A DNA stretch of 8,946 nt from an uncultured Acidimicrobiales bacterium (GTDB lineage Bacteria; Actinomycetota; Acidimicrobiia; Acidimicrobiales; Aldehydirespiratoraceae): assembly GCA_938091985.1 (NCBI GenBank), contig CALKOE010000161.1:1-8946 (forward strand), given 5' to 3'. The position numbers were made by a program, and so were the translations under genes. Every line of letters begins with the position of its first letter. The stretch's first letter is position 1. Below the pieces are notes generated by a model, which worked only from the letters and a program-made list of their open reading frames with translations, did not search any database and had not been told where the DNA came from. This document shows, piece by piece, positions 2,489-7,223 of the stretch.

Positions 2489-3847
2489 TCAGCAGGTGCA
2501 GGCCGTGCCGGCGTCGAAGGTCGTCCCGGGTTTGGGGACCTGTCCGTGCTCGGTCGTCGTGTCGAACGTCTCCTGCGCCTTCTCGGCTGCGTCGAGCGCC
2601 GCGAAGAAGACGTCGTCGGCCTTGTTCTCCGTCTTGCCGATCATCTTCTGGTGGATGCCGGTGAAGAACCGCTTGTAGATGTTGACGTGCTCCTGCTCGT
2701 GGGCGGAGATCGCGGCTTCGTACCGCTTCCACTCCTTCACCCAGCACGGGCATTTCGAGTCCTTCTCCTTCGTCCAGATCGGGAGGACCCGTTCCAGGTC
2801 GAGCTTCACCGTGGCCTTCGTGACCTTGCCCTTTTTGTTTGTCTCGTAGACCGGATTCGGGATGACTTCTTCGATGTCGCCCTCGCTGTTCTCCTTCTCG
2901 ACGGGGATGATCACGACGTGGCCGGCCTCGCCGTGGATGTTCATTCTCGTCTCGAGTTGTTCGCCGATTCCCGCGATCGTCTCGGCGTCGATGACGTAGT
3001 TGAGGTCCTCGCTGACCGCTACCGAGGTGGATCCGGTCCCGGCCGCAGCACCGCCGGCGTTCGCAGCCGCTTCCCCGACATCCACCGTGATGGTGTCGAG
3101 CGCCGTCAGCGTCTCCGCGAGCGGCACACCGCCGTTGCCGCCGCCGAGCACGTCCTGCACGGCCGCCGCGAGGTCGCCGTGAGTCCCACCCAGCTCGGAC
3201 TGCAACGTCGGGTCGAGTCCCCCGAGCATGCCGAAGACCTCGGATGCGGACTGCTGCATCTCGATGGTTGCCGGATCGGCACCCTCGGCCCCGCCCGATC
3301 GAGCGGACTGGAGCGGCGAACCGTCGCGGCTCGCGAACGGCCCGAGTTTCGCCGCGATCGAATCGAGACGAGCCGCGATCCTCGTCGCGAGAGCGGCGGA
3401 TCCGGGCTCGTCGGCCGGGCCGATCGAGTATCCACCGGCCTTGAGATGCGACCACGTCTGCGGCCCGACGATGCCGTCGTCGGCGATGCTCGCCGTGCGT
3501 TGGAACGCACGAACTGCGCCCTTCGTGATGGGTCCGAAGATGCCGTCCACAGCGAGGTCGCGGCCGGCCTGCACGAGATAGTCCTGCAGATGAATGACGT
3601 CGTCGCCGCGAGCGCCGAGCGCGAGCATCGACTCGGTCCCGTGGGCGTCGCCACCGAAACGGTCGACCCTCGGCTGGGGGCTCCCTGTGCGGGGAGTCGC
3701 GGTCTGCCTGAGCCGATACAGCTCGGTCACGGCCCGGTTCCCGGCCCTCCGATGAAGTTCGGAGGTCGCATCGCTTCGCACCGGTTGCGGGCGCGGCGCC
3801 CCCTGCGGCCTGCGGGCCGGTGTCGCACGCCGCGTGGTGTGCCGCAT
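2489..3847 (-). CDS. Peptidoglycan-binding, DUF922-like zinc metallopeptidase with N-terminal GNRAV motif
   Basis: A 452-residue protein (from ATG 3847). Residues 1-60 are basic and proline-rich and contain ELHRRAGNRAVTEL (about 30-43). Residues 74-135 are a PG_binding_1 domain (LGARGDDVIHLQDYL, DGIFGPITKGAVRAFQ, DGIVGPQTW). A low-complexity Ala/Gly-rich stretch follows to about 280. The C-terminal 160 residues resemble DUF922 predicted zinc proteases: AAISAHEQEHVNIY holds a HExxH motif (HEQEH, about 383-387), and TFDTTTEHG matches the family's late YD.ET.HG pattern. There is a CPC pair and the protein ends in CTC. No signal peptide or membrane helix is visible. GTG 3865 is an alternative start, but GGGAG lies 4 bases before ATG 3847 and a TACGCT hexamer at 3875-3870 would place transcription start near 3863. 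The GNRAV motif is reminiscent of DUF4157-type proteins linked to extracellular contractile injection systems. Peptidase activity and cargo status are inferred. Confidence 0.85.
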   Translation of the reverse strand: MRHTTRRATPARRPQGAPRPQPVRSDATSELHRRAGNRAVTELYRLRQTATPRTGSPQPRVDRFGGDAHGTESMLALGARGDDVIHLQDYLVQAGRDLAVDGIFGPITKGAVRAFQRTASIADDGIVGPQTWSHLKAGGYSIGPADEPGSAALATRIAARLDSIAAKLGPFASRDGSPLQSARSGGAEGADPATIEMQQSASEVFGMLGGLDPTLQSELGGTHGDLAAAVQDVLGGGNGGVPLAETLTALDTITVDVGEAAANAGGAAAGTGSTSVAVSEDLNYVIDAETIAGIGEQLETRMNIHGEAGHVVIIPVEKENSEGDIEEVIPNPVYETNKKGKVTKATVKLDLERVLPIWTKEKDSKCPCWVKEWKRYEAAISAHEQEHVNIYKRFFTGIHQKMIGKTENKADDVFFAALDAAEKAQETFDTTTEHGQVPKPGTTFDAGTACTC

Positions 3848-3869
3848 GTCGCTCCCGTCTCTCACGCGG

Positions 3870-4645: not shown

Positions 4646-5269
4646 GTGGATGATGTGCAATTCCGGTACGAGATCTACATGGCCTTTGCGGCAACTGGTG
4701 AGGCGCCGTCCGTCGCGCTGCTCACCGAGTGGGCGGGCGGGTTGGCCAACGCGGAGTCGGCGCTTCGGCGGCTCCACGAAGCGCACGCTCTCGTGTTGGA
4801 CGAAACCGGGGCCATTCGCATGGCGCTTCCGTTCTCCGCCGTGGAGACCGAGCATCAGGTTGTCGCCGGTGACCGGACCTGGTGGGCGAACTGCGCGTGG
4901 GACGCGCTTGCGATACCCGCTGCCCTCGGCCTCGACGGCCGCATCAACGCCCGGTGGCTCGACTCCGGCGAGGCGATTGATCTCGAGATCGTCGGGGGTG
5001 AGCCGACCTCATCTGACGGACTGGTCCACTTCGCCGTCCCGGCCCGTCGCTGGTGGGACGACATGGTCGAGACTTGACGAACAATCAGGTTTCTCCGGTC
5101 GGAGGACAATGCGCCGCCGGGTGCCGCCGTCCCGATCGGTGCGATGTGGTCGTTGAGTAAGGCGTGGTACGGGGACCGTCTCTCGCCTGGCTACCGACCG
5201 AGGAGCGTCGAGCAAGTGCGGCAAATGCTCACCGACGCCGACTTGGTATCGGATTTCTGGCGGCTGTGA
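4646..5269 (+). CDS. MerB-like alkylmercury lyase with in-frame TGA at the catalytic Cys159 position (probable selenoprotein)
   Basis: MerB cleaves the carbon-mercury bond of organomercurials by protonolysis using Cys96, Asp99 and Cys159. The frame encodes a winged-helix N-terminus (VQFRYEIYMAFAATGEAPS, then ALRRLHEAHALVL), then RTWWANCAWDALAIPAALG, where Cys83 and Asp86 match Cys96/Asp99, then HFAVPARRWWDDMVET. Next comes TGA (5075-5077, residue 144), then 63 more codons in the same frame: RTIRFLRSED, then AWYGDRLSPGYRPRS, ending DFWRL before TGA 5267-5269. The family normally has Cys here (pattern FTC..I.FFRSE). Full length is 207 residues against about 212 for MerB. Cys83 is the only cysteine. 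A SECIS-like hairpin follows the TGA. Without recoding the product ends at residue 143 and loses an active-site residue. GTG 4646 is chosen because it gives a family-like N-terminus; GTG 4655, with GGTGG upstream, is possible. Family assignment is firm; selenocysteine is inferred. Substrate may not be mercury. Confidence 0.85.
5075..5106 (+). promoter_or_regulatory. Candidate bacterial SECIS element with its UGA codon
   Basis: After the in-frame TGA (5075-5077), bases 5091-5096 (TTCTCC) pair with 5101-5106 (GGAGGA): six pairs including one G-U. The apical loop is GGTC (5097-5100). Nineteen bases separate the TGA from the loop. Bacterial SECIS elements lie just downstream of the UGA inside the coding region, with the loop roughly 16-37 bases away and a G among its first two bases; E. 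coli fdhF has a GGUC in its apical loop at nearly the same distance. All these conditions are met. The stem is short, so the fit is suggestive and not conclusive. Confidence 0.6.
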
Positions 5270-5333: not shown

Positions 5334-7223
5334 ATGTCTGAGCAACTCCAAGTGACCCACACCAGCCACGTCACCGAGGACCAGATCGATCATCTCGGTC
5401 ATATGAACGTGCGCTTCTATGGGGCCAACGCCGCGGCGGGGACGCGAGCGATGCTGGAAGAGATGGGCGTCTCCGCGGGGACGCCGGTCGTCGATCTTCA
5501 CACCCGCCATCATCACGAGCAGATGCTCGGTACTGCACTCGAGGTGCGCAGCGGACTCGTCGACGTTGGTCGCGGTCTCGCTATCTACCACGAGCTCCGC
5601 AACGCAGCCGACGACGATCTCGCCGCATCCTTTGTCCATGTGGTGGATCATCCTCGGCTCGAGGCGCCGGCGGCGGTCATCCCCGAGCACGGGCGCCCCC
5701 GCTCACTCGACCTTGCCACCGATCCGATCAGTTCGGCGCCGTCGCTCGAGGTCCTTCAGCCGCTTGGACTCGAGAGTCGGGCGCCTGGCGTCGTCGACGA
5801 AGAGGTCACAGCGGCAACAGCCCCAGGGCTGATCTGGGGAGGGCCCCCGTCGGAAGAAGAGGAGCGCGACTGGATACAGCGGGGACCGAACGGCGAGCGG
5901 ATGGGCTGGGCCACGATGGAGTCTCGCCTTCGCATCAACCGCCTGCCGCCGCTGGGCACCCGGATCCAGAGCTTTGGCGCCACCACTGCGATCGAACGAA
6001 AGACCACCCGATCGACGATGTGGACCTACGACCTGGCCGAGGGTGATGTGTACATATGGCGCGACGGGGATCTCACGACGCCGCCCAACAACTGGCAGGC
6101 CGAGTTTCCCGAGGGTCCGGCCTGGCGATGGGACGACGTGTCGAGCGCCTGGTACCTCCACATGTTCACCCCCGAGCAGCCCGACCTGAACTGGGCGAAC
6201 CCGGAGGTGCGAGCGGCCATGCACGACACGCTGCGCTTCTGGCTCGATCGAGGCGTCGACGGCTTCCGGATGGATGTGGTCCATGCCATCGGGAAGCCCG
6301 ATGGTCTTCCCGATCGCGAGAAGGGCCCCGGTCGGGTGTTGACCCATTTCGACGGTGTCACGTTCGACACCGGGATCGTCCACGAGTACCTCCGGGGCAT
6401 TCGTGCGGTGCTCGACGAGTACGACGGCGACCGGATGTCGATCGGCGAGGTCTACATTCTCGACCCGCACAAGGTCGCCACGTTCTACGGCACCGGCGAC
6501 GAACTGCACCTCTCGTTCAACTTCCTGCCGTTGTGGTGCCCGTGGGATGCCGAGGTGTGGCGCGGCCAGGTCAAGGATGCGGCCGAGGCATTCGACCCCG
6601 TGGGGGCATGGACCACCTGGGTGCTGTCGAACCACGATGTGCCCCGCCACCGGACTCGCTACGGCGGCGACGAGCGCACCGCTCGGGCAGCGGCGGTACT
6701 CCTGCTGACGCTTCGTGGGGTTCCCTACATCTACGCAGGGGAGGAACTCGGCCTTCTCGATGCCGAGGTCCCGAAGGAGCAACAGCAGGACCCGGCCGGG
6801 CAGCGTGACGGTTGTCGTGCCCCGATCCCGTGGGATGCATCGCCGACGCATGGATGGCCGCAAGCGGACAACTGGCTGCCGTTTCCGCCCGAGGCCGACG
6901 TTCGCAACGTCGCCTCACAGGTCGCCGACCCGGGATCGATCGCCAACCTCTACCGAGCAATCATCGCGAGTCGGTCCGCGTCAGCAGCGCTGCAGGTTGG
7001 CAGTGTCGAGCTCATCGATGCGCCGCCTGGCGTTCTCGCATTCGAACGGTCGCACGAGGGTGATCGCCGAGTCGTGGTGGTCAACATGGGTGACGACGAG
7101 GCCGCGGCGATCTCGATCGTGGGGGAGTGGAGCATCGAGCTGCGCTCCGATGGGTCGGGCGACGACCTGTGGTCGGGCGCGCTGCCTGCCCATACTGCCG
7201 TCATCCTCCGGCCGAGGAGCTGA
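5334..7223 (+). CDS. Chimera: double-hotdog thioesterase fused to an N-terminally truncated GH13 glycosidase
   Basis: One open frame of 629 residues joins two unrelated enzymes. Residues 1-240 are a 4HBT-type acyl-CoA thioesterase: a first hotdog (VTEDQIDHLGHMNVRFYG, where DHLGHMN is the active-site helix region) and a second one (about 160-238, ending STMWTYDLAEG) that lacks its last strands. From about residue 240 (YIWRDG, TPPNNW) the protein is an alpha-glucosidase-type GH13 enzyme: EQPDLNWANPEV, the nucleophile in GFRMDVVH (Asp314), acid/base in SIGEVYI (Glu372), stabiliser in LSNHDVPRH (Asp435), PYIYAGEELG, and a C-terminal beta domain. The first roughly 130 residues of the GH13 barrel, including the DFVPNH region, are absent. 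The join is near base 6054, at a rare ATA codon. All three catalytic acids remain but the barrel is incomplete, so glycosidase activity is doubtful. Likely an in-frame deletion between formerly adjacent genes, or an assembly error. ATG 5334 opens the hotdog as expected. Confidence 0.88.
   Translation: MSEQLQVTHTSHVTEDQIDHLGHMNVRFYGANAAAGTRAMLEEMGVSAGTPVVDLHTRHHHEQMLGTALEVRSGLVDVGRGLAIYHELRNAADDDLAASFVHVVDHPRLEAPAAVIPEHGRPRSLDLATDPISSAPSLEVLQPLGLESRAPGVVDEEVTAATAPGLIWGGPPSEEEERDWIQRGPNGERMGWATMESRLRINRLPPLGTRIQSFGATTAIERKTTRSTMWTYDLAEGDVYIWRDGDLTTPPNNWQAEFPEGPAWRWDDVSSAWYLHMFTPEQPDLNWANPEVRAAMHDTLRFWLDRGVDGFRMDVVHAIGKPDGLPDREKGPGRVLTHFDGVTFDTGIVHEYLRGIRAVLDEYDGDRMSIGEVYILDPHKVATFYGTGDELHLSFNFLPLWCPWDAEVWRGQVKDAAEAFDPVGAWTTWVLSNHDVPRHRTRYGGDERTARAAAVLLLTLRGVPYIYAGEELGLLDAEVPKEQQQDPAGQRDGCRAPIPWDASPTHGWPQADNWLPFPPEADVRNVASQVADPGSIANLYRAIIASRSASAALQVGSVELIDAPPGVLAFERSHEGDRRVVVVNMGDDEAAAISIVGEWSIELRSDGSGDDLWSGALPAHTAVILRPRS

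Follow-up and report, generated by a model that had tools for sequence, protein, structure and literature searches.

Does the in-frame TGA of a MerB-like gene in an uncultured Acidimicrobiales bacterium disable the gene, terminate it, or specify selenocysteine (Sec)? The gene lies in an 8,946-nucleotide stretch of DNA (contig CALKOE010000161.1 of assembly GCA_938091985.1), the whole of which is referred to here as the window and which is contig C161 of a genome bin, G000, that is 66% complete. On the forward strand, the frame at 4646-5269 opens with a GTG, a start that agrees with relatives beginning MDDLRFR (P0004), and is interrupted solely by the TGA at 5075-5077 (residue 144, the predicted Sec, U144) before its own TGA stop at 5267-5269. 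As the first-pass annotation, made from the sequence alone, had claimed, reading through yields an intact MerB-family frame of 207 residues that continues for 63 codons past the TGA to a natural stop. Comparison with related genes indicates that this UGA is almost certainly decoded as Sec, and we consider it likely that the product is a MerB-family protein with Sec in the Cys159 column that cleaves a metal-carbon bond with Cys83 and Asp86.

The predicted protein passes the gathering cut-off of the Pfam MerB family PF03243 (73.4 vs 27 bits), and its predicted fold agrees with MerB over about 176 of the 207 residues; matches to LexA, MntR and NosL were set aside, each spanning parts of the model only. 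Against MerB2 (5c17), phmmer aligns residue 144 with the Cys of TCKQIHYFSS, and a MAFFT alignment that includes three canonical MerB sequences from the same phylum puts U144 in the Cys159 column (e.g., FCHHVHFF), which bears out the position originally proposed for the TGA. By alignment, the Cys96 column is occupied by C83 (codon 4892-4894) and the Asp99 column by D86 (codon 4901-4903), and 61 residues separate C83 from U144, as had been counted. In MerB, Cys96, Asp99 and Cys159 are residues of the active site.

A search of the class matched 43 places in 41 of 296 genomes. Each of the 27 strongest (E 8.1e-23 or better), hereafter the carriers, contains exactly one TGA, and in their alignment all 27 TGA codons occupy a single column, with a TU motif at the Sec site in every row and a frame that continues to a conserved end, FW; among the 16 weaker places, 13 are without a stop, two have one TGA, and one is a fragment with several stops. 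Scanning named genomes by a pattern around C83 yielded 213 relatives, of which 80 were kept; the stop column holds TGA in 75 of these and TAG in five, and all 80 keep C83 and D86, both of which the scan pattern itself required. By title, the 80 loci come from Actinomycetota, Chloroflexota, Gemmatimonadota, Acidobacteriota, Planctomycetota and Calditrichota, the nearest by identity (57 and 55%) being metagenome bins titled Acidimicrobiia and Acidimicrobiales. The placement of TGA in one column is far beyond chance.

Such a column bears directly on the possibility of a nonsense mutation, a sequencing error or a decaying gene, which the first-pass annotation had itself raised and which we now find scarcely credible. 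TGA is one base away from a Cys codon, and one kept relative, L101, has an additional stop, a TAG. However, the relatives do not show the random stops that were named at the outset as grounds for abandoning Sec; the stop is fixed in the same column in all 27 carriers and in all 80 kept relatives, with the frame intact beyond it, and nonsense mutation is thus refuted as a rival to Sec. It is very improbable that the UGA is a true stop, with a functional 143-residue piece and some other cause for the downstream conservation, even though databases call the genes in this way: among the listed homologues (the best 120 of 1258), 118 end one residue before the Sec column (114 recognized by pattern and four by eye, one of them the window's own truncated open reading frame (ORF)), and the remaining two are a fusion (P0055) and a form with Cys in that column (P0098). 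The FW end after the codon argues against termination, as do the third codon positions, which vary most there (0.60 vs 0.45 and 0.43), and the joint change of the stop codon and the tRNA-Sec anticodon described below. An altered code with TGA as a sense codon was ruled out because the MerB-like gene and other genes of the window end in TGA.

Besides P0098, Cys occupies the Sec column in L213, L214 and L036 and in the three canonical MerB proteins; in the tree, the Cys forms are interspersed with the Sec forms, at moderate support values (0.64 and 0.78). In L036 (G241:C13), CAWC replaces CAWD, that is, there is also a Cys in the Asp99 column.

The five TAG cases belong to Geodermatophilus saharensis, G. 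pulveris, Blastococcus capsensis, B. saxobsidens and Modestobacter excelsi (assigned to the Geodermatophilaceae, on a taxonomy check that covered three of them). The best tRNA-Sec genes of these species all have the anticodon CUA (64.2 to 66.9 bits, cut-off 47); ARAGORN labels them Pyl, by anticodon, and the Rfam model gives tRNA-Sec. In Nocardioides sp. zg-1230, which has the TGA form, the tRNA-Sec anticodon is UCA (77.6 bits). The tree groups the five TAG genes with the TGA genes L116 and L167 in a seven-tip clade (support 0.84). For the Geodermatophilaceae, tRNA-Sec with CUA and UAG at Sec sites are on record in the excerpted text of PMC5330540, and our TAG cases have both features in common with the UAG-Sec selenoproteins described there; the passage in question lists formate dehydrogenases, UGSC-motif proteins and one AhpC and does not include the MerB-like gene.

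Downstream of the UGA, the window contains a predicted hairpin (5091-5106, forward strand) resembling a selenocysteine insertion sequence (SECIS), with a six-pair stem (5091-5096/5101-5106) and a GGUC loop (5097-5100), located 19 nt after the UGA and with a folding energy of -8.3 kcal/mol (5078-5116). These values lie within the bacterial SECIS (bSECIS) limits in the excerpted text of PMC13188914, namely, a loop of 3-9 nt with a G in the first two places, a stem of 4-16 bp, 16-37 nt from the UGA to the loop, and a minimum free energy of at most -7.5. From the codon preceding the TGA onward, 57 bases align gap-free across the 27 carriers. Seven hairpin pairs are paired in 93.7% of the cells, and five of them change on both sides; the covariation score of 0.442 was reached by none of 500 shuffles, and slid positions give 0.067 to 0.192. 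RNAalifold, unaided, recovered six of the seven pairs. The GGUC loop is present in all 27 carriers and in 73 of the 80 scan relatives, and all 27 carriers encode the Arg and Ser of the loop by CGG and TCG, codons whose share elsewhere in the same genes is 31% and 36%. The hairpin sequence is absent from the Cys genes L213, L214 and L036; P0098, which was judged on the protein only, retains FRSE. In a search of G000 with the hairpin model, the next match after the window (C386, L192; 21.5 vs 47.4 bits) was considered as a second hairpin gene and taken as a chance match because no TGA precedes it in an open frame; ten weaker matches were left unread.

The search for selA, selB, selC and selD in the host genome that the first-pass annotation had proposed succeeded in part. 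Contig C8 of G000 encodes the C-terminus of SelA, cut by the contig end, followed by SelB (291.7 bits, cut-off 242.25). SelB passes its cut-off in 25 of the 27 carriers vs 136 of the 269 other genomes (p 1e-5, uncorrected for kinship), and SelD, for which only carriers were tested, passes in 26, that is, all except G000. Matches to tRNA-Sec reach E 1e-10 or better in 24 carriers and are weaker in G000, G232 and G247, in a search of poor specificity that 215 of the 296 genomes and 5 of the 14 controls also pass.

Several observations weigh against this interpretation, with respect to both decoding and function. The part of the host search that did not bear out concerns selD and tRNA-Sec: in the 66% complete G000, neither selD above the cut-off nor tRNA-Sec was found, the tRNA-Sec-like matches being tRNAs for Ser, Leu, Thr and Ser. 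SelB is below the cut-off in the carriers G196 and G294, in which selD and tRNA-Sec matches are present. Seven of the 80 relatives lack the GGUC loop and yet have TGA (L131, L132, L142, L159, L160, L176 and L178; five Chloroflexota and two Gemmatimonadota); the window hairpin, taken by itself, is no more stable than shuffled sequences (z 0.02); and one of the five covariation measures, the number of additional pair types, does not stand out from shuffles (229 of 500). With regard to function, the scores lie far below the cut-offs of the NCBIfam MerB equivalog models (33 vs 193 and 32.3 vs 200 bits), and MerA is over its cut-off in only two of the 27 carriers (G001 and G125, not G000), vs 9 of 50 hand-picked non-carriers. 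Furthermore, no mer gene was recognized among the shared neighbors of the 80 scan loci, in a check in which ORFs were inter-compared and clusters of at least six loci were viewed by eye, so that rare mer genes would be missed. Sec decoding is still the most likely explanation because the stop recurs at the catalytic-Cys column across phyla, mostly with the same predicted hairpin. The Sec reading advanced in the first-pass annotation is thus supported by the fixed column and by SelB and the SelA C-terminus in the host genome; the pairing of TAG with CUA and of TGA with UCA, and the covarying hairpin, are evidence that the annotation had not put forward.

Compared with the known MerB proteins (PF03243; MerB, MerB2 5c17), the window family has in common the Pfam domain, the predicted fold and the Cys96, Asp99 and Cys159 columns, but differs in the Sec codon at Cys159, in its own C-terminal part, in scoring far below the equivalog models and, whereas MerB stands in the mer operon with MerA, in the rarity of MerA among carriers. 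In NCBIfam 20.0, P0001 passes the cut-off of no model. In the excerpt of PMC13188914, SaoL (NF040728), a MerB-like organometallic lyase, is listed as a selenoprotein with the motif CU, and two reviews, in their excerpted text, list it as a Sec-containing MerB relative. That our family is a divergent SaoL is improbable: SaoL is likewise a MerB-like protein with Sec, and NF040728 is the best NCBIfam match (E 2e-9), but the score is 37.6 bits vs a cut-off of 140, and the listed CU differs from the TU of all 27 rows; the two are set apart by score and motif. No report of the present family was found in the Creative Commons-licensed literature of PubMed Central (PMC), a scope that leaves outside the original SaoL paper, which may describe the family.

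A far weightier alternative, although we hold it to be the less probable one, accepts Sec but not the lyase: a MerB fold with Cys83 and Sec144 might serve in the binding, transport or sensing of some other soft metal or metalloid, or perform a redox function. The retention in the alignment of all the MerB active-site residues, Cys, Asp and Cys/Sec, and the extent of the agreement with the MerB fold speak against this possibility. Because MerA accompanies so few carriers, an ordinary role in a mer operon is not supported, and the metal handled by the Sec-containing protein may be other than mercury. Given Sec, metal-carbon lyase activity, argued by analogy to MerB, is modestly favored. Under the lyase interpretation, SelB on the hairpin would bring Sec-tRNA to the UGA, the selenolate and the Cys83 thiolate would capture the metal, and Asp86 would donate a proton, releasing the hydrocarbon. 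The metal-carbon bond cleaved would most likely be that of organomercurials, and the affinity of Sec for a soft metal would be expected to exceed that of Cys. With MerA missing from most carriers, the metal would therefore pass to another acceptor.

A sister group carries two in-frame TGA codons. In three of the 396 genomes of the phylum (G022, G494 and G503), genes at least 71% identical to P0122 (L232, G022:C1:1408040-1408834; L233, G494:C75:833-1618; L234, G503:C160:14744-15526) have a TGA in the Cys96 column, Glu in the Asp99 column and a second TGA in the Cys159 column, directly followed by CTTCCGGTCGGAAG. The genome of L232 is a single contig, and P0122, a protein of this group, passes PF03243 (52.7 vs 27). 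A candidate fold is predicted for the bases after the first TGA. If both codons are indeed decoded as Sec, the sister group would be an organometallic lyase whose active site pairs two Sec residues.

At 16 to 17 Chloroflexota loci (L126, L142 and others), the gene lies in an rpsB-tsf-pyrH cluster, within 300 bp both of a gene for elongation factor Ts (EF-Ts) on one side and of an amino-acid-kinase gene resembling pyrH on the other. In G216, a MerA-like flavoprotein (C151:7601-8917, reverse strand; 309 bits, below the MerA cut-off) is encoded about 200 bases from the Sec-MerB gene, and in G001, a MerA-related frame (C16:200235-201584, forward strand; 375 bits, also below the cut-off) with one in-frame TGA adjoins the true MerA gene. 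In the window itself, a single 629-residue frame at 5334-7223 (forward strand) combines a thioesterase-like start (4HBT_2) with an alpha-amylase domain lacking the first 107 profile positions, and is a fusion, a deletion or an assembly join; a 458-residue frame at 2489-3865 (reverse strand) contains a peptidoglycan-binding domain and DUF922.

Taken as a whole, the most extended version of these conclusions, in which a large and so far unrecognized selenoenzyme family spread over six phyla performs MerB-type metal-carbon cleavage with Sec at Cys159, a sister group uses Sec-Sec, and the Sec codon switched from UGA to UAG in step with the anticodon of tRNA-Sec, is a tentative one, to which we give slightly less than an even chance. 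The genes are cut at the Sec codon in annotation, so that database entries lack the C-terminus and the second catalytic residue, and some of the pieces are named organomercurial lyase. If the interpretation is correct, many bacteria would invest selenium in an enzyme that handles metals and lies outside the mer operon. With carriers named to species in Blastococcus, Geodermatophilus and Modestobacter, selenium control of organometal breakdown and the contribution of Sec to the cysteine chemistry of MerB would become testable.
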